From Paramacrobiotus metropolitanus (lineage: Eukaryota; Tardigrada; Eutardigrada; Parachela; Macrobiotidae): a DNA stretch of 64,000 nt. A program made the position numbers and the translations under genes. The notes beneath the pieces are model-generated. The model did not search any database and had not been told where the DNA came from. It worked only from the letters and a program-made list of their open reading frames with translations. Below, in pieces: positions 2,060-60,255 of this stretch. Within the stretch, counting starts at the first letter, position 1. Each line of letters opens with the position of its first letter. The DNA lies in assembly GCF_019649055.1 (NCBI RefSeq), contig NW_026570264.1, forward strand, positions 992,001 to 1,056,000. The letters are read 5' to 3'.

Positions 2060-3275
2060 TCGTCCCATTCTGATCGTAATCGTGCCGGCCAAGGTTTTCA
2101 TAATGCGGTGCAAACAGTTCCAGTTCGAAGCTGCTACAGTACGTGAATAAAGATACATTAACAATTTGTTCACATCAAAAAGATTTTTTCCCAGATCGTT
2201 ACAATACTTCTACCCAATTATTATGTTTTGAATTTGCAGCATTAGGTTTTACATGTGTTCACAAAGCATACAACAGCTGCAAAATGATAAGATCGTAACA
2301 TACGAGAAGCGAAGAAACCGGCACAAACAGCTCATATGTATTGTTAGGCAAAATGGATTTTCGCAATGGAATCTGGACTGCCGGGTTGCCGTTTAGAAAT
2401 AATTTATGCGGTAAAATGAAGCGCAACAGTTCCTACGGCCGCAAAATAAGATATAGGTAGCGACAAAATCAGTTTAAACGAGAAACCATTTTATTTCTCT
2501 ATTGCACCAGACATGCAAAACAAAACAGGATCAGTTTTGTCCAAGTGTTTCACCATGTTGTGTCTAACTGCTTTAACCAGCTTACCAGGAATGCAGCATG
2601 ACACCGCCGCGAGCGGAAGCCGACTAATCTGCTTCTAGTCAGAACTAGTTAATATGATTCTCCTTTTTTACGTGCGGGAAAAGGTTGTACTAAAGAGTCC
2701 TGCGATTTGGTGACCTTGTGATTCTCGAATCTGGTAATCGTATTTGTAGGTGATTCAAGACCTTGCCTCTTCCAACCTGAAGAGTCGACTGCTTCCTGAA
2801 AGCGCAGAATAGCAGCTCGACTTGAGATGCTCTAAGAACATCGTTTTTAACCCTATAACTAAGCACTAAGCACCCTATAACTATTAGTCTATAACTAAGC
2901 AGAAAGAGCCTTTTGAAGATTTATTGTTCAGCTTTTTTCTGCTGGCTACAACCCTCACTCAGGGGAGTTTTTGCGCCAGAAATTGGTATCGAGATTTAGC
3001 GAGGAAATGCAATTTCTGTTCTCGATACATTCAGCGACATAGTTGAGAAGGAACATGTGTATTTTCCCTACTACTGCAATTTGGCTGAACGGGGATAAAG
3101 TCATGAGTCATGACTGTTTTTGTTTAACTGACACTTTCTACTCTTGCAATATACAGAGTATTATCTATGGTCTGGCGTTCCAACAGAAACGGAATAATCT
3201 TGTACATTGTGTGGGGAACTCCTAAAATTAAGCGCTCCCCGTGCACAGTGCACACCAAGAACTCAAATGAACGTT
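2060..3275. other. Intergenic stretch, no gene seen
   Basis: No reading frame here shows splice-supported coding character. Around 2860-2900 there are short imperfect repeats of CTAAGCA and CCTATAACTA. The right part borders the likely 3' end of the ORP gene on the minus strand. Confidence 0.5.
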
Positions 3276-3281
3276 TTTATT
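3276..3281 (-). terminator. Candidate poly(A) signal of the ORP gene
   Basis: The minus strand reads AATAAA here, about 410 bases beyond the TAA stop at 3690-3692. No canonical hexamer was noticed closer to the stop, so this is a plausible end of the last exon, with a 3' UTR of roughly 0.4 kb. The C-rich + strand at 3370-3560 would be the G-rich 3' UTR. Inferred from position only. Confidence 0.4.
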
Positions 3282-3689
3282 AACGCCGTTGCCAAATCAC
3301 AATCAATCAGAAATTAGACAAACATGGTAAACAGAACCCGTTGCAACCGACCTGGCCACGAATTAACGGCTAAATGAACCGCACCCCCCTCCACCCCGTC
3401 CCATCCACCGAGCAACCAAACGGGCAAGAAGGGAAGAAAAAAACAGAGAGCCAGAAACAATCAGCACCCCCCCAACTCCCCTGAATTACCGCAACATTAA
3501 TCATCAGCAGCCACCAGCCCCAAACAGGAAAAACAGCAGCGATTATTACGAGCACAACCCCCGTTCTTATCCGGCCCCCTAGATAGGACCGCTACAACCG
3601 TCATCTTCTGCAGGAAAATGCATCACAAGCTAATCGACACAAAACGCTCCCATCGTCGCCGGGAAGATCTGGACCCTTCAGACCCCGCA

Positions 3690-41000: not shown

Positions 41001-42127
41001 AATAAATTTTCGAGATCACTTTACGAACCGAGAGCGTTAATTGCGTAATTCAACTGGGGTCAAGATATACCGTCATGCGCATTCGACGAGCAATGTCGCA
41101 TCGTTGCCGCTGGACTTTACAGAAAGTTTGCTGTAGTTACCATATTTTAGGCTGACGTGCTGGCTAGCGCCACTTCGAATCTTTGATGTCGCGTTTCTGC
41201 GCAAATAATTCTGCACTTCCTTTAAGGACGTCGTATTTTTACTTTCTCATATGAGGTCATTTTTACTTCCTTATATGACGCCATTTTTAACTTCTGTAAC
41301 GGACAGACAGACAGAAAAGTTTTTATTTCACCTGAATTAGACTTCCTTCGCTGCGCTCCGGTCGATGACAGGTTTAATCGAAGTATCCTACAGATAATTG
41401 GGCTATTTCAAGTTAAATTTATAACGCTTATTTTAACTGTCGGTTTTTACCCACAGGTTTCCCATACCATGATTCCGCCGGCGTACACTTACAGAGGAAG
41501 GCAGGTCTCTCTTACAAATGGCACATTGCCCCACGAGTGTTCAAGGGAATGAACTATCGCTGCAATTTCACAAGAAATACCAGTGCTGGGGAAACCATTA
41601 TGTGGAGCTGGAAGCGGGCAAGCGAGTACGATCCGGCGACTGGTGCGTTCTCCATCGCGTTGGAGAACTTCACGTACGGCCACACCGGTCAGTACGAGTG
41701 TCTGCACTCCAACGGGAGCCAGTTGGTCGTGACGCAACGCTACTGGGTCAGCGCGACCCTCTTCCGCCACGAGGTCTTTGATCCGCCCATGAAGAACATC
41801 ACCGTGCGCTACGGCGACCCAGCGGAGATGGTCTGCGCGGTCCGCTTCAACTTTCTACGCGGACAGCTTATGCACCGCTTCCTCTGGCGCAGTGGAACCT
41901 ACCTGTTGATAACCGACTCTATCGCGGAGTTGGCCGATAAATCCAAGTCGTGGTGGGGATTTTATGGGCGTTTTGAGGTGGGGATCAATCCGCAGTCGCG
42001 CTGCCATTCCACTATGAAAATCGCCAGCGTGACATGGAAAGATGCCGGTCTGTACGAATGTTGGTTCCGCATTAACGATCGTTTTGACGAGTGGATTATG
42101 CAGGAAGCTTATTTACAAGTCATTTAA
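38091..42127 (+). CDS. Secreted immunoglobulin-domain protein (5' end uncertain)
   Basis: Two exons are visible. Exon 38091-38284 follows acceptor CTGTTGTAG and ends at donor GTACTG in phase 0; it includes EFFTAEWPPLTEIIRAPEGG then TLFIYCNNS, an Ig B-strand with its cysteine. The last exon ends at TAA 42125-42127. Acceptors at 41457 (CCACAG) and 41495 (CTTACAG) are possible; only the second keeps phase 0, otherwise an exon is missing between. The last exon holds two Ig-like units: NYRCNF, IMWSWKRAS and HTGQYECLHS, then AEMVCAVRF, HRFLWRSG and DAGLYECWFR. Seven N-glycosylation sequons (such as NRT, NFT, NTS, NGS, NIT) point to an extracellular protein. There is no C-terminal membrane helix, so it is probably secreted. 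The signal-peptide exon at 25194 fits in phase. Ligand and role unknown. Confidence 0.7.
39756..39790. repeat. Short near-perfect hairpin
   Basis: Arms TTCCAATGAACCTATC (39756-39771) and GATAGGTTCATTGGAA (39775-39790) are exact reverse complements separated by GGG. It lies in the candidate Ig intron, just before a GGAGCGCAGC motif seen in several other repeats here. Confidence 0.9.
39868..40180. mobile_element. MITE of about 310 bp in the Ig intron
   Basis: Two arms of roughly 85 bp are inverted copies: the left arm contains GGCCCATTATTTCAATCAG and TTTAGGGATCA, the right arm the corresponding CTGATTAAAATAATGGGCC and TGATCCCTAAA. Between them is a short array of TCTATGCAGT-type units (40000-40090). 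No reading frame. The outer ends are not sharply defined, so target duplication and family are unassigned. Confidence 0.65.
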
Positions 42128-51363: not shown

Positions 51364-52629
51364 CCAATGTACTTTACTCTGTAGATTGCCGTGACACGAA
51401 ACCTTGCAGGTTGTCATAAAAGATTCTCTACCGTTCCGAAACTAGAAATCAAGATTGTCAAATTAATTTGAAAATCTAGTTTTATTGATTCGTTCAGAAT
51501 CGTCTTCATTGTAGTTTTGTTGTGCCTTTTTCAACAAAGTTGCTGAAAGTTTTCATAAAACCCTGGCTATACGTTCGACTTTTTGGCCCAGTCTAATTCG
51601 CCATATCTCAATAACCGGGGCGTTGCGCCCACAAATTTGTAGCGATGTATGTTGACAGCGAAATTAAGTGAACCTTTTATCGGCATCTGCCATTACACAT
51701 AATAATACGCCTGCGCGGGTTTACACTAATAAAAGTTCCGAATTTTAAAAACTGAAAAAACATCCAAAATCATTAGCGTCTTTCGTGAGTTTAGGACGCG
51801 CGTTAAATGTACCCAAAACAGTCGCTGCATTCCTTCTGACTACAGCTAAACTTAAACTTTGTCTCAAAAAGGCTGAAATTACACGAATCTTGCGGCCGAA
51901 GAAACGGATTGGCTCCGAGAAAGCCAATCCAAATGTCCCAAGCGTCTCGACATCGTAATTTTATTATGATGTCGAGCGAAATCTGTATAGCTGTACAGGG
52001 TACATGCCTGTGACTGTAAATTTGCTAAACATTCTCCAGTGCAATGTAGTGATGTACAGGTATGTACTTGCTATTTGTAGATCTGGACGACCCCAATGAA
52101 TTGCGGTTTAGTGACCTTTTTGCGGAGCTGCATCTGGCTGTATTCTCCTATATGTTTTTGATCAACATCAGATTCGCAGGTGCGGTATTCGCCCAATTTC
52201 CTTTAAGGGAATTTCCTAAGCGTTTTTCTAGCAAATATGAGAGTGGCGACGAAAGTTCACAGTAGTTCCGATGCCTGTGCTTTTTTATAGCTGCAGAACA
52301 AAGCCGTTCAGGAGGTCACACAAAAAGTCGTTCCTCTGTGAAACGGTGTATTGCTGTAGTCAGCATACTCATTTTTTGCTACGATGTCGCCGTATCGGCA
52401 ATGCGCGTCGTATGTGACCGGCAAAAATGTCCCCCCTGTCCCCCCGGACATTTTTGCCGTGTCCCCCCTGCCACCATCTCCAAAACGGTAACCCTATGGT
52501 CAGAATGGTGACGTGGGGGACCTACAACGGAAAGCTGATTTTCAGGGCGATCGATGACCTTTGAAAAACTGCCACCAGCGTTACCACAGCGTTACCAGTC
52601 CAAAACAGCTGAGGACATCAGTCACCGAA

Positions 52630-53115
52630 GGGACATTATTGCCGGAACGAAATTACTAGTATCCGGCATGGGGGACATTATTGCCGGAACGAATTTAGTG
52701 GTGTCCGGCATGGGGGACATTATTGCCGGAATGAAATTATTGGTGTCCGGCATGGGGACATTATTGCCGGAATGAAATTATTGGTTGTCCGGCATGGGGG
52801 ACATTATTGCAGGAATGAAATTACTGGTGTCCGGCATGGGGGACATTATTGCCGGAATGAAATTACTGGTGTCCGGCATGGGAGACATTATTGCCGGAAT
52901 GAAATTATTAGTGTCCGGCATGGGGGACATTATTGCCGGAATCAAATTATTGGTGTCCGGCATGGGGACATTATTGCCGGAATGAAATTACTGGTGTCCG
53001 GCATGGGGGGCATTATTGCCGGAATCAAATTTTTGGTGTCCGCCATGGGGGACATTATTGCCGGAATGAAGTTAGTGGTGTCCGGCATGGGGTACATTAT
53101 TGCCGCAATGACTTT
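52630..53115 (+). repeat. Left minisatellite arm, about 11 copies of a 42-bp unit
   Basis: Each unit reads GGGGACATTATTGCCGGAAT followed by GAAATTATTGGTGTCCGGCAT on the + strand. A few units are 41 bp, having lost one G, or 43 bp. The array ends in decayed units (TTGCCGCAATGACTTTCTTG) near 53120. Because the unit is a multiple of three, open frames such as GMGDIIAGMKLLVS arise; I do not consider them genes. Confidence 0.95.
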
Positions 53116-53259
53116 CTTGGTATATGGCAAATGCGCAATATATGGCAAATGCGCAATAATGTCGAAAAGATTTAATTTTTATGGTGGTAATTTCCTGCAG
53201 CCTACTACGAACGTTTGTATTGCGCCAGAAACTTGCGTTAGCGTACAGTCTGTAATTTG

Positions 53260-56200
53260 ACTGTAATCATTTAATGTTCACATAATGTTTGCCGTGTCAA
53301 AGTTTTTATATTTGCTGCTTCTTCGTGGAAACGTTCCGAGATGCAGAGTTGATAATAATTTCTGGCTCCTGAAAAGTCCCCAGCTTATTGCTGTACAGTG
53401 TTAAACTTAGTACCACTGAGTACTGAGACGAGGTTTTCAAGATAGGCAACGGCTTCTTGCTTATTAAATTATTTAGTCCCTTGTAATACTACTGGTAGCG
53501 GTAACAATTTCTGCGTTCATTTATGATATTGGTACAACCTATAACGTCCGAATGTTTTGTGGGCAACACTCACATACACAGACGATTATAACGGAGAAAA
53601 TCTTCGTCTATCTATGAATCATTAATTATTAACAATAGTGAAATTAAACTTTACCGGTTTAACAGACCTTTGTACCAGTACAATGTTAGAGATACTTTGA
53701 AATTAGAAAAACTGCGGTAATCGAACGTAATTTAGATTTCCAAACAAGGGTTAGTACCAAGTTGCCAATGTGCGAGCAGTTGTAATGTTCAGTAGTATTT
53801 TTACACACTGCAGAGTCGAGTCGACTTTACACTTTTTTGCAAACTTGCCGCTTCTTTTCCATACCAAAGTTTGATCGGCAGAAATTTCTGGCGGCGTTTT
53901 GACACTGGTCCAAAAAGGCATTGAAATTTTTCAATTTTTCTGGGCAAAAAATGCAATTTTTTCCCTCACTACGATCTATCTGCAACCTGCACTTAAAAGC
54001 GATCGGCAATAGCGAACGGCCGTAGAATCTGGTTAGGTGTATCTTTTCATATGGCTTCACCGCACGAGCATAAACACAAAGCTTTGCTAGGTTGCCGCAT
54101 AAACATAAAAATATTTGAAAATCATAAAACCTGTATTACACAAACCTAAAGACCAAACATAGTGTATACTGTCACGAAGCAGTAAATAAACAAGAATATC
54201 TATTTGAAACGCGCGCGCTGCTCTCTGACTGAATGTGTGATGAGCATCTTGTTGCTACATTAAGGGTCACTTATTGCTGCACGGCATTTCATCTACGTAA
54301 CATTGTAGTACGTTTAGGCACCCGACATAAATAGTATAACTGCACTACTACTAAGCCACTAGCCAGGACACAACCCGTCTTTGCCGGTATTGTGCTTGCC
54401 GCATCGCGCAGGTGCGACTTTTTCCGTACTTCCAGCCTTTGTACTGCATTTCATGGAGAGATTTCACCGTTGCAGTGTTTGAAACCATTTTAGCAATAAA
54501 TATAGCAGTGATAAAATGGGTACCGCCTAACCGGTAAAAAAATAGGATACGCGGTTGCCCCAAGTCGTGAGTTTAAACAGCCACTGTGCCCACTTAGAGT
54601 CAGATGGCAATGACCGACGGACGCACACTATCGGTTGCGTGTGGTGTAAAAATAATGAAGCAAAATTTAACGTTGAACTATCAATGAACATACCGCGGAA
54701 TATTTCGTAACCAGCACAGCACTCTTATATGGCTACAAGTATCCGTACTTTTTGACACTACTGGGTAGGTCTTTATGAAATAGATTGTGAGTAATCGGCA
54801 TAGCATTTTACATGCAGCCTGAGCACCCCCCCCGCGGCAAGTTGGCAGAATGCCATTGTATTTTTATGGCACACCACGTACGTAGAACAGCAGCGAGTCG
54901 TGCACAGAAGGCACTAGCATTAAAAATAACGGAGAATTTTGTGTGGTCTCTGAAACAGAATACCTTTCGAAAAAAAATATGAATTGCTAGTGAAGTCTTT
55001 AACGTTAACGTAAAACCTGAAATGGCTCTAAACAAAATTATTAAACCACTGCCTTAATCACTGTTTGAAAACTATTTTTTCGAAGTGGATATGGTGCGTT
55101 CGTTTAAAGTAAAATTTTTCAAAAGAAACAAGAGTGGTTTAGCTGTCGTTTTATTTACAAGCAAACCCAAGAGGGTCCGAGAAATTTCGACCTTGTAATA
55201 TCCAGTTTTGAAGGGAGCAAAAACTTTGGGATTACAAACTGGAGCCATAAATGATTTCATGATTTTGAAAATCAGTCGTGGAAAAAAATGTTTTTTAACA
55301 TAAGAATTAAACAACAGCAGTATAAAAAATGAAAGAGGAGAGTATGGGAAATTTTTTAGCAACAAGCAGCAATTAACGGCTGTATAAATACTCTTACTTT
55401 TGTGTAAATAGAGTAATTAAAAGGGGGGAGCATTTGGAATTTTGAAGCAACAATTTTTCATTTGTGCTGAGCACACGTTTTGCTGCATGGACAAGAGTCT
55501 GCAAGAAATGCACTTGACGCATTACGATCAACTAACTACTGTACTTTTCATTGTAGTCGCCTTGCAGTTCAGTAATTTTTGAAGACAGGTGAAACGAATA
55601 TGTCATAAATTGCACAGCATTTTATCAAACTAAGCCGGCAAAGGTCAGCACGCGAAATATAATCTAAATCGAGCAATTTATTACGGCAGCGTCGCGTACG
55701 AGTTGTATCTCAGAGGGATATGTACGGATACTTAAACGCTACAACGCGCTCAGCGCAGTGCGTGCATAGCAGGAAGAAGAAAGCGACCAGGCCAGTCGAC
55801 GTTGCAACGTGCCGGCGGCTACAGTATCTGTATGTACCGTAAAGATTTTTTTAAATTATAACGGTAGCAAAGCTGTACTTTTCTTATCATGGCGAGTGTC
55901 GATAACACAACTGGCATGTCAGTACAATAGTTGAAACCACTACCAGTACCATAGACGGCTCCACTATCTTAACCAGCACCAGAATCAGCAACCGTTCTCG
56001 CTACCAGTAGCAGTAACAGTGCGAGTACCACTATCATTTCCATGAATGTTGACTAATACAAAGTATTATGTCATTGACGTTAATGAATACACCAGAAGCC
56101 ACCAATTCTTCATCCAGTTAAATGCGGCGGCATTCCTTACTGACTAAACAAAGCATCCAGTTTTTACGATGCTGGATTCGATTCGCAATCAAGTTTCATC

Positions 56201-56640
56201 CATATACGAAGCAAGAAGAACAACAGAAACCGTTAAAGAGCTGCTATGGTTGCAAGAAAGCGCTGTATTAAGTTCGCATGCCTATAGGCAAACGAAGTTA
56301 CTTATAAGTGAATTCACTTAAAAGTAAATTATAGGCTACAGATAGTCTGAAGCGAAACATACGGCTGCAGACACCTTAATTATTACAGAATTTCCCAGAT
56401 TAAAATAATGTTATAGTTGAGTGTTGACCAATGTAACATTAAATACACTTCACCCCTGCTGTCGTTTTAGTTCGTTTTTGGGTGGACCAATATACGGCCA
56501 ACATATCAAAGGTTTCTGAAGAACTTTTCAGATTTACGAAAAATTTGAATACAATAAAGCCGCAGCCGGTCCACAGTCATGCAGCAAAAGTTATAAAATT
56601 TCACGATTTTTTTTCTCTACTTCCATAATAAAACAGTGAG
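53260..56640. other. Central region of the Foldback-like element, no gene recognised
   Basis: About 3.4 kb of AT-rich DNA separates the two arms. The longest frames (53827-54060 minus, 55072-55365 minus) show no transposase signature. Short imperfect repeats of ACCAGTA/CCACTA words occur at 55940-56035. It could be captured host DNA or a dead transposase gene beyond recognition. Confidence 0.5.
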
Positions 56641-56649
56641 AAGGCAATA

Positions 56650-58640
56650 ACGTTCCGGCAAAAATGTCCCCCATGCCGGACACCACTAACTTCATTCCGG
56701 CAATAATGTCACCCATGCCGGACAACCAATAATTTCATTCCGGCAATAATGTCCCCCATGCCGGACACCAATAATTTCATTCCGGCAATAATGTCCCCCA
56801 TGCCGGACACTAGTAATTTGATTCCGGCAATAATGTCCCCCATGCCGGACAACCAATAATTTCATTCCGGCAATAATGTCCCCCATGCCGGACACCAATA
56901 ATTTCATTCCGGCAATAATGTCTCCCATGCCGGACACCACTAAATTCATTCCGGCAATAATGTCCCCCATGCCGGACACCACTAAATTCATTGCGGCAAT
57001 AATGTCCCCCATGCCGGACACCAATAATTTCATTCCGGCAATAATGTCTCCCATGCCGGACACCAATAATTTCATTCCGGCAATAATGTCTCCCATGCCG
57101 GACACCAATAATTTCATTTAGGCAATAATGTCCCCCATGCCGGACAACCAATAATTTGATTCCGGCAATAATGTCCCCCATGCCGGACACCAATAATTTC
57201 ATTCCGGCAATAATGTCCCCCATGCCGGACAACCAATAATTTCATTCCGGCAATAATGTCCCCCATGCCGGACACCAATAATTTCATTCCGGCAATAATG
57301 TCTCCCATGCCGGACACCAATAATTTCATTCCGGCAATAATGTCTCCCATGCCGGACACCAATAATTTTATTCCGGCAATAATGTCCCCCATGCCGGACA
57401 CCAGTAATTTCATTCCGGCAATAATATCCCCCATGCCGGACACCACTAAATTCATTCCGGCAATAATGTCCCCCATGCCGGACACCACTAAATTCATTGC
57501 GGCAATAATGTCCCCCATGCCGGACACCAGTAATTTGATTCCGGCAATAATGTCCCCCATGCCGGACACCAATAATTTCATTCCGGCAATAATGTCTCCC
57601 ATGCCGGACACCAATAATTTCATTTAGGCAATAATGTCCCCCATGCCGGACACCAGTAATTTGATTCCGGCAATAATGTCCCCCATGCCGGACAACCAAT
57701 AATTTCATTCCGGCAATAATGTCCCCCATGCCGGACACCAATAATTTCATTCCGGCAATAATGTCCCCCATGCCGGACAACCAATAATTTCATTCCGGCA
57801 ATAATGTCCCCCATGCCGGACACCAATAATTTCATTCCGGCAATAATGTCTCCCATGCCGGACACCAATAATTTCATTCCGGCAATAATGTCCCCCATGC
57901 CGGACACCAATAATTTTATTCCGGCAATAATGTCCCCCATGCCGGACACCAGTAATTTCATTCCGGCAATAATATCCCCCATGCCGGACACCACTAAATT
58001 CATTCCGGCAATAATGTCCCCCATGCCGGACACCACTAAATTCATTGCGGCAATAATGTCCCCCATGCCGGACACCAGTAATTTGATTCCGGCAATAATG
58101 TCCCCCATGCCGGACACCAATAATTTCATTCCGGCAATAATGTCTCCCATGCCGGACACCAATAATTTCATTTCGGCAGTAATGTCCCCATGCCGGACAC
58201 CAGTAATTTGATTCCGGCAATAATGTCCCCATGCCGGACAACCAATAATTTCATTCCGGCAATAATGTCCCCATGCCGGACACCAGTAATTTCATTCCGG
58301 CAATAATGTCCCCATGCCGGACAACCAATAATTTCATTCCGGCAATAATGTCCCCCATGCCGGACACCAATAATTTCATTCCGGCAATAATGTCTCCCAT
58401 GCCGGACACCAATAATTTCATTCCGGCAATAATGTCCCCCATGCCGGACACCAATAATTTCATTCCGGCAATAATGTCCCCCATGCCGGACACCAATAAT
58501 TTCATTCCGGCAATAATGTCCCCCATGCCGGACACCAGTAATTTCATTCCGGCAATGATGTCCCCCATGCCGGACACCAATAATTTTGTTCCGGCAATGA
58601 TGTCCCCCATGCCGCAGACCTGGAAGTTTGTTATGGCAAT
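56650..58640 (-). repeat. Right minisatellite arm, about 47 copies of the 42-bp unit
   Basis: On the + strand each unit reads GGCAATAATGTCCCCCATGC followed by CGGACACCAATAATTTCATTCC, the reverse complement of the left array. Variant positions (ACCAATAA, ACCAGTAA, ACCACTAA; CCCCC or CTCCC) recur in a fixed order, showing a higher-order period of about 506 bp; for example the private variant TTTAGGCAAT occurs at about 57117 and again at about 57623. The array passes through degenerate units near 58600 into the unique block. Confidence 0.95.
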
Positions 58641-58869
58641 AATATCCCTACGGTAACCAGTGCCCCTCACCTGTTTTAGACTGGTAGCGCTGTGGTAACG
58701 CTGGTGGCAGCTTTTTAAAGGTCACCGATTGACCTGAAAATCAGCTTTCCGTTGTAGGTCCCTCATGTCACCATTCTGGCCAAAGAGGTACGGTTTTGGA
58801 GATGGTGGCATGGGGGACACGGCAAAAATGTCCGGGGGGACAGGGGGAACATTTTTGCCGGTCACAGTT

Positions 58870-60255
58870 GTAGGCAATCCAGATATTTTTGTCTTCAGGA
58901 CGTGTAAATGGTTCCGTCGCTTATTATACCAATTGCGCCAACACCAATCGCGACATACTTACATCGAATTTCAACCTTTACATACTTACATCGAAGCTCG
59001 AAAGAGGCATGATTGGCTGGGCTTCGATGTAAATCCATTTTCGCTCGAAGTCTGTCGCGGGGCGTTGACGAAAGCCGTTACACAGATAGGCGTACCTTGT
59101 AACGGGTCTAAGCGACGCCCAGTTACTTACAAACTTCGGTTTTCTGCGATTTTGATTGGCTGGTCAACATTTTGAGTTAGATCGAGGCTGCCCACCACCA
59201 ATAGCAAAATTCGAAATCACGTGGTTTTTCTCCATACTTTCCGCTGTTTGTGGAGTTAACACAGTAAAACAACGCGTTCTGCTGATTTTTTCCAAGTTCT
59301 TATTTTTATTTTTTTTAAACTTTAAGTTTCAGTTTTGTTAATAAAATGGAGATTTATAGTGGTAAATGTTTGACACCCTTATAGTTATGTCCACAGTGCA
59401 GGGAAGCCTGCATTTCTGGGATTCCAGAGAAAAATTGTCAATTTAACTTTACAGTACTGTTTAGCCAAATGGGTTCTCATCTTTGGGACTTTTTTAACCT
59501 GAGCTTTGATGATTGTCGACTGCGTATTACAATTCGCAAAGAAGGCCAAATGTGCTTAATATCTGTTTGGCTTTCTTTGATAATTTTTAATATTCGCGGC
59601 ACAGTTTGTTGGCGCCGTATCGCAGGGAATCCTGCTTGCTGGCTATCCAGCTGCAGCTGATGGTGACTGCCTTCTGTACTTCAGTTCTTGTTCCGCTTTA
59701 ACACCCGACTGCCACTATTATTACTAGACAGCCTTGCACAGTAAGTCGGATAAATATTTCATTTCATATTGATGGGATAAAATATAAATGGGCATGATTT
59801 ATTTTAGTTAGTTTTAATTCTGGCTTGCATTTTATGGCAGTAAATGTGCTTACTACACTATACTGTAGCAGAGCGGGTTCCCGCATTGATCTGGCTACCC
59901 AGAAATACAATTACTTAACCGTATTATGTTACCGTATATTTCTAACTTATTGTAGTTATAATAAGCCTTTTTGGCGCTCTTGTGATCGCGGGTATGAAGT
60001 TAGAGCAATATTCGTTGTAAAGAAATGTTATGTTGCATGGAACATAAAATGTGAGTGCAGCGTCTATTAATGTATGTGCGTCCTGGCTGTTCTGCGCACG
60101 TTGTCCGGGTTAACCCGGACAAACATACACGCAAGCCGTGAAAACGGGCGCGGTTTTGCATACTTTGTATGTAAATGCACGCTGAATTCGGTGTAAGTAA
60201 GTCCCTGATGCGCCTATGCGCAAATTACTATATTATCCTCCGAAATTATACAACA
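58870..60255. other. Intergenic stretch, no gene recognised
   Basis: ACATACTTACATCGAA is repeated at about 58951 and 58981, with the complement CTTCGATGTAAAT at 59021. Frames at 59469-59660 and 59825-60070 lack motifs. Nothing else is supported. Confidence 0.45.

Follow-up and report, generated by a model that had tools for sequence, protein, structure and literature searches.

Within a 64-kb stretch of the genome of the tardigrade Paramacrobiotus metropolitanus (contig NW_026570264.1, positions 992,001 to 1,056,000), we analyzed an element with mirrored ends and two oppositely oriented arrays of a 42-bp minisatellite. The whole stretch is referred to as the window, its positions serve as coordinates, and the element lies at 52413-58866. 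We consider it quite probable that this element is a non-autonomous transposon moved by the integrase of its relatives, and that its arms are an amplified recognition motif. It belongs to a dispersed family whose copies share their ends and are in many cases flanked by target duplications, and some of whose members encode pieces of a retroviral-type integrase. Copies are named by contig labels (C-numbers) and fetched loci by L-numbers.

The original prediction, made from the letters alone, had described a Foldback-type transposon with mirrored ends, 42-bp arms of about 11 and 47 units and a terminal hairpin, and the measured structure bears out each of these features (Table 1). The 202-nt inverted repeats match at 92%, the arrays are oppositely oriented, and the arms hold 11.5 and 46.6 copies. 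Part of the inequality between the arms is due to a 548-bp (~13-unit) duplication within the right arm, where 280 consecutive bases are identical at offset 548 and, at offset 549, 1.42 kb align with 96.5% identity. Folded as single-stranded DNA, the tip forms a hairpin of 14 pairs (-15 kcal/mol, z -8.2; equally stable shuffles, 0 of 200), and the tips of two related families also form hairpins by the same folding. The unit of the left arm contains GGGGACATTATTGCCGG; apart from one difference, this sequence is the terminal motif in reverse complement. A Pfam-type scan, applied to the longest of the window open reading frames (ORFs), and the core comparison described below revealed no recognizable gene in the core, and an Rfam search of the window gave no match. 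Since 42 bp equal 14 codons, long frames stay open across the arrays; we considered coding repeats and rejected them, as the 41-, 31- and 32-bp arrays of other copies and families argue against this explanation.

Table 1. Parts of the window element (window positions), core groups of the family and host-gene segments (locus positions)
Feature	Position	Strand	Remark
Left target-duplication copy, GTCGTA	52407..52412	+	compared with right copy GTTGTA
Left terminal inverted repeat, starts TGTGACCGGCAAAAATGTCCCC	52413..52614	+	202 nt, 92% complementary to 58665-58866
Terminal hairpin: recognition-like motif and its own inverted copy	52419..52459	+	single-strand DNA folding
Left arm, 42-bp minisatellite	52630..53111	+	11.5 copies, 91% matches
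Core, 3.5 kb, without recognizable gene	53112..56652	.	ORF scans
Right arm, 42-bp minisatellite	56653..58614	-	46.6 copies, 94%; includes 548-bp internal duplication
Right terminal inverted repeat, ends ...GGTCACA	58665..58866	-	91.5% identity to left end over 200 bp
Right target-duplication copy, GTTGTA	58867..58872	+	one CpG-type difference from left copy
Core groups	C245/C35/C419; window/C178/C58a/C46; C17/C58b/C69; C103/C113/C1		core comparison
Host-gene segment	L008 2966-3493 (C46); L007 3585-4103 (C58a)		open as frame in both copies

We searched the genome (169.8 Mb, 533 contigs) with the 214-bp end as query and found it at no fewer than 40 places, the best 40 of 101 candidates being scored. 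The 22-bp tip, with up to two mismatches, occurs at 91 sites (43 forward, 48 reverse), and its reversed-pattern control at none. Exact matches to the array motif number 1,171 (control 0); among the 100 matches listed, all on contig C1, there are five groups, each at a tip site. Our comparison covered 25 two-ended copies, namely the window copy and 24 further ones (13 and 11 fetched), as well as the flanks of eight single ends. Two-ended copies span 260 bp to 12.2 kb, and their arms, which are unequal within copies and reach ~4 kb, hold from no units to ~92. In five copies (C46, C419, C219, C31 and C1b) the two 200-bp ends are 100% identical. This search, set beforehand, returned what the original prediction had expected of a transposon: many loci that share their ends, differ in arm length and in many cases have short target duplications.

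An exact 6-bp target duplication flanks 12 of the 25 two-ended copies (C103, C58b, C46, C245, C419, C35, C69, C219, C32m, C145m, C69b and C31), and flanking hexamers that match at five of six bases are found at four more, namely the window copy (GTCGTA/GTTGTA, a CpG-to-TpG difference), C381, C178 and C52. The centre of the duplication is CG in 14 of 16 cases, scored on the CG-bearing copy where the two differ (background CpG 5.06%; P ~8e-13 allowing either copy); the exceptions are C58b with TG and C69 with CA. The centre was also read in 24 further outward hexamers, from the copies lacking a duplication, from C1 and C59 and from the eight single ends: it is CG in 13 and TG or CA in seven. The duplication of C381 is ambiguous because both of its empty sites lack five nucleotides, TCACA, that are present in the left flank (L001). 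These five nucleotides are complementary to the TGTGA tip of the element and are a possible hairpin or footprint by-product. C59 was excluded from the tally on account of its mirror-image flanks: at C59:750190-757450 (L027), three tandem left ends have an identical flank and the right flank is the reverse complement of the left, so that this locus looks artefactual, whether as an assembly artefact or a fold-back rearrangement.

The joined flanks of 16 copies were searched in the genome, and the best 40 of 48 candidates were scored, which makes the result a lower bound: junction-spanning matches without the element exist elsewhere for at least 6 of the 16 copies (window, C245, C381, C219, C419 and C35). 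Alignments were made for nine of the ten places that span a junction; the one on C88 was left out. For the window copy, the joined flanks align to a paralogous site at C44:985604-985707 over 97 of 114 columns with an ungapped junction, and this site departs from GTCGTA at three of the six bases of the duplication. The three empty sites of C245 align over 116, 106 and 103 of 120 columns, and those of C419 (102/127) and C219 (105/125) have gaps away from the junction. Both sites for C381 (106/120 and 104/120) contain a 5-nt gap adjoining the junction, and the site for C35 is weak (87/119).

On C245, C419 and C35, the ends and 42-bp arms of the window family enclose cores of 6.4 to 7.7 kb, and a fourth copy with integrase pieces, C135, is apparently cut by the contig start. 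The Pfam rve domain scores 33.1 bits in C35 (cut-off 32.6), 32.3 in C245 and 22.9 in C419, and the PHD domain 28.9 bits in C419 (cut-off 24) and 18.2 in C245. Matches to Peptidase_C48 are found at E<=0.01 in five of seven members of A1, with visible NHW, D and DCGVY motifs. In C245 the motifs follow one another on one strand in the order KYPADV, GH..YYW, GYDLI, LISDNG, CGQVE, KYTGPL, GNHW, DCGVY, YCICRM; in the gene-bearing copies KYPADV/KYPAGV and KYTGP(L/F) were identified by pattern only. Against PDB the integrase fragment matched eight sequences, retroviral (PFV) integrases where named, only at E 0.007-0.013. The Ulp1-like domain had no PDB relative by sequence, and its AlphaFold model, with a mean predicted local distance difference test (pLDDT) of 41, was discarded. 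A search of viral contigs found no relative.

These relatives provide a potential mechanism for movement of the window element. An integrase-type transposase of related copies (e.g. C245, C419, C35), encoded in pieces split by presumed introns and comprising a YP-type N-terminus, an H2C2-like segment, a DDE core, GP(F/L), a Ulp1-like protease and a PHD finger, would recognize a ~17-bp motif adjoining the TGTGA tip and insert the element into NNCGNN, with duplication of 6 bp. The minisatellite arms would be amplified copies of this ~17-bp motif, and may act as accessory binding sites that grow and shrink by unequal exchange. Action of the relatives' integrase on the window copy, its binding to the arrays and a benefit from such binding are what we infer from these sequences.

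The coding region recalls Ginger1 transposons, as far as the consulted parts of their description extend (Bao, Kapitonov and Jurka 2010, PMC2836005); the other comparisons with published systems made below are limited in the same way. Ginger1 elements have 4-bp CCGG/CCGT duplications and inverted repeats of 40-270 bp. They share with the present family TGTNR tips, a CG-centred target, a multi-piece coding region, a gypsy-like DDE integrase core and the C-terminal PHD finger of some Ginger1 members. For their H2C2 zinc finger, YPYY and GPY/F motifs and C-terminal Ulp1 (or OTU) protease, the present family has candidate counterparts, which score just under the cut-off (H2C2-like, Ulp1-like) or are identified by pattern (YP-type, GP(F/L)). 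Here, by contrast, the CG-centred duplications are 6 bp and the tandem-repeat arms reach ~4 kb; the words "tandem" and "subterminal" are absent from the main text of that paper. GingerRoot/IS3EU elements also have 6-bp duplications, with tips that are mostly TA..TA, occasionally TG..CA in GingerRoot, and no HHCC motif (PMC10045372). The family resembles them, by description, in its 6-bp duplications and in TG..CA tips as in some GingerRoot, and differs in its TGTRR tips and in an H2C2-like segment that, at 24.6 bits, falls slightly short of the cut-off.

Six further Ginger-like families in this genome have tandem-repeat arms, which form inverted pairs in four of them. The integrase relatives on C58 and C1, at 62-64% identity, carry inverted 31-bp arrays; for C252 and C284 the fetched stretch shows a 32-bp array on one side; the more distant C58c, C19 and C78 have inverted arrays based on 42 or 21 bp; and C11 and C116 have merely ~3-copy repeats of 34-36 bp. 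Six of eight rve fragments in other Ginger-like families reach 32.6 bits or more (L038, L042, L055, L084, L079, L082). Their tips read TGTAA or TGTAG, compared with TGTGA in the window family, and that of C284 reads TTTAA. The tip of the 31-bp family occurs at 182 genome sites (control 0), and in 18 mostly short pairs hand-picked among the 100 listed sites, the 6-bp duplication is exact in 10, matches at 5/6 bases in six, and at 4/6 and 2/6 in one each. By eye, exact 6-bp duplications flank C58c (GGCGCC), C19 (GGCGCA) and C78 (ATCGGT), C1 of the 31-bp family reads GACACT/GACGCT, and C58 has no duplication. We placed the integrases in a tree of 99 columns with 13 Ginger-like and five gypsy-like fragments, all from this one genome, for which the program warned of long branches. 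The 42-, 31- and 32-bp families cluster together (93/93), and C58c, C19 and C78 fall outside this cluster yet are armed; therefore arms are not confined to the 42/31/32-bp group.

The relation between tip and array was assessed with a 17-base tip motif and one array stretch from each of seven families, both chosen by hand. In five of the seven, a family's own array is closest to its tip motif and ahead of all 200 shuffles (narrowly so in C252), and only 2 of 5040 permutations pair tips and arrays as well as the true pairing; since the families are related, these tests are not independent. Together with the tandem arms of six further families, the fit of tips to their own arrays makes it most likely that the arms are amplified recognition motifs. 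In C32m, C145m and C69b, array-type sequence (CCGGCAATAATG) stands directly after TGTGA at the left tip and exact duplications are kept, which suggests that an array unit can act as an element end.

The most serious alternative, though an unlikely one, is that the arms arise as a by-product when a subterminal repeat expands by unequal exchange, with no role in transposition. Arm lengths vary widely, the right arm of the window copy contains its 548-bp duplication, and armless sister elements carry target duplications. Nevertheless, several families whose motifs differ all have their terminal motif within the repeated unit, and two groups of Ginger-like integrases include elements with arms. 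We compared arm units in 18 elements with at least four units per arm, sampling up to 10 units per arm. Units differ on average by 3.77 edits within one arm, 4.19 between the left and right arms of one element and 5.98 between different elements; the two arms are closer to each other than to the average other element in 16 of 18, and an element's own right arm is the nearest of all in just 5 of 18. This pattern likely reflects homogenization within elements, mixed with shared descent. C58a, with ends that are 92% alike, the most divergent arms and no duplication, is probably a recombinant; the arms of C46 are nearly as divergent, yet its ends are identical and its duplication is exact.

Several observations weigh against a transposon driven by the integrase of its relatives and armed with amplified recognition motifs. 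Six armless sister elements of 57-77 bp (L060-L065), little beyond two tips back to back, have duplications matching at 5/6 or 6/6 bases, and thus arms are not needed for movement in the 31-bp family. In C19 and C78 the own array ranks third and second and is not ahead of all 200 shuffles. Seven of the 25 copies have no duplication (C58a, C113, C17, C58m, C109, C1b and C1c), the right end of C1 is broken, and C59 has mirrored flanks. Peptidase_C48 falls just below its cut-off of 20.7 (20.2 bits in C245, 19.5 in C419), as does Integrase_H2C2 (24.6 bits in C245, and a second match at 21.7; cut-off 25.5). The third catalytic residue (CGQVE) was identified by pattern in C245 and C135 only and was not found in C419 or C35. 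Stops or frame shifts occur in matched stretches of all four copies with integrase pieces, none of which is claimed to be intact: the integrase fragment of C135 contains a stop, the C419 integrase is frame-shifted, the C35 protease is divided between two matches and has a stop, and the C245 protease match has one stop. To these may be added the 4-bp length of the published Ginger1 duplications (PMC2836005).

Kinship with Foldback or Galileo elements was part of the original prediction and is the one part that we do not uphold; we regard it, and with it movement by a Mutator- or P-type transposase, as improbable. Galileo is of P type with 7-bp duplications; Tetris duplicates 8-10 bp and its transposase was not found; and Tm1 duplicates 9 bp and has a Phantom-like transposase (PMC3573991, PMC4079207, PMC3169594). 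Foldback-type arms are known mostly with Mutator transposases, Galileo (P) being an exception (PMC4079207). The architecture that was predicted does stand, in the form of a mobile family with independently varying tandem-repeat arms, target duplications and empty sites. Long inverted arms with differing numbers of internal tandem repeats, mosaic elements and some copies without matching duplications all recall Galileo, Tetris and Tm1, for which secondary transposase sites in the repeats have been proposed, as they are here. Transposase class and duplication length differ: the present family has 6-bp, CG-centred duplications, its gene-bearing copies encode an rve integrase with Ulp1-like and PHD domains, and the tandem-repeat arms of the six further families are likewise those of Ginger-like elements. 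Because enzyme and duplication do not fit Foldback/Galileo, and the lengths of duplication and inverted repeat do not fit Ginger1, we call the window family a Ginger1-like, 6-bp-duplicating lineage with Foldback arms, set apart from the published types by their descriptions. In the literature searched, outside of which lie Repbase reports and most subscription journals, no description of Foldback arms with a retrovirus-like integrase was found.

Derivation from a Polinton/Maverick or a long terminal repeat (LTR) retrotransposon, which have related integrases, appears slightly less probable still. Duplications of 6 bp fit Polintons and some LTR elements (PMC10045372), and TG...CA tips fit LTR elements; the repeats here are inverted, not direct, and in the integrase tree the Ginger-like fragments part from the five gypsy-like ones (100/98). 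Among the ORFs scanned, a subset of all ORFs, there was no polymerase, capsid or reverse transcriptase over cut-off and one sub-cut-off capsid-type match (14.8 bits); a protein-primed DNA polymerase B of Polinton type was likewise absent from the ORFs scanned, no genome-wide search for it having been made. A unique inverted segmental duplication or assembly error is the least credible reading, and for the family it is refuted: arrays are hard to assemble and C59 looks artefactual, but the genome holds 91 tip sites, 12 exact duplications at different places and element-free sites for at least 6 of 16 copies, rather than the single locus without empty sites that the original prediction had set against a transposon.

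Beneath shared ends, the cores of 13 of the 25 copies fall into four groups. The window core is ~92% alike in C178, and was therefore carried by two different insertions; rearranged pieces of it occur at 67-77% in C58a and C46. These last two copies contain a frame (125 and 134 residues in C46 and C58a) with 86% identity to the protein product of C27:1139878-1140237; eight weaker matches are also present on C27, and 530 bp of C46 correspond to the 3' end of the C27 gene at 85% DNA identity. We read this segment as putative captured host DNA from the C27 gene cluster. In the core of C17 (L016), a frame whose zinc-knuckle match stays below cut-off lies between two exact copies of a 283-bp segment (core 1697-1979 and 3181-3463), an arrangement that may represent a small nested element of LTR type. 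Elsewhere in the window, further minisatellites lie near its start (155-551 and 717-897, units of 51 and 50/100 bp), and a 236-residue open frame at 41417-42127 on the + strand gives the impression of an immunoglobulin-domain protein.

Foldback-type arms, formerly known from other transposase classes, are here paired with a retroviral-type integrase. For such integrases the length of the duplication is set by the spacing of the two strand-transfer sites (PMC10045372), and a Ginger-like group with 6 rather than 4 bp and a shared CG centre would open this spacing to comparison. Families with 42-, 31-, 32- and 21/42-bp units constitute a natural experiment on the reasons for which foldback arms evolve and the ways in which transposons give rise to satellite-like arrays. 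We tentatively suggest, with a little less than even confidence, that these elements represent a distinct lineage in which each family carries the motif recognized by its transposase as a minisatellite of its own, with up to tens of units per side, in which motif, array and enzyme change together, and in which strand-transfer spacing has shifted from 4 to 6 bp with the CG centre kept. If this is true, each family would document how an integrase and the satellite-like platform that it binds have evolved together.

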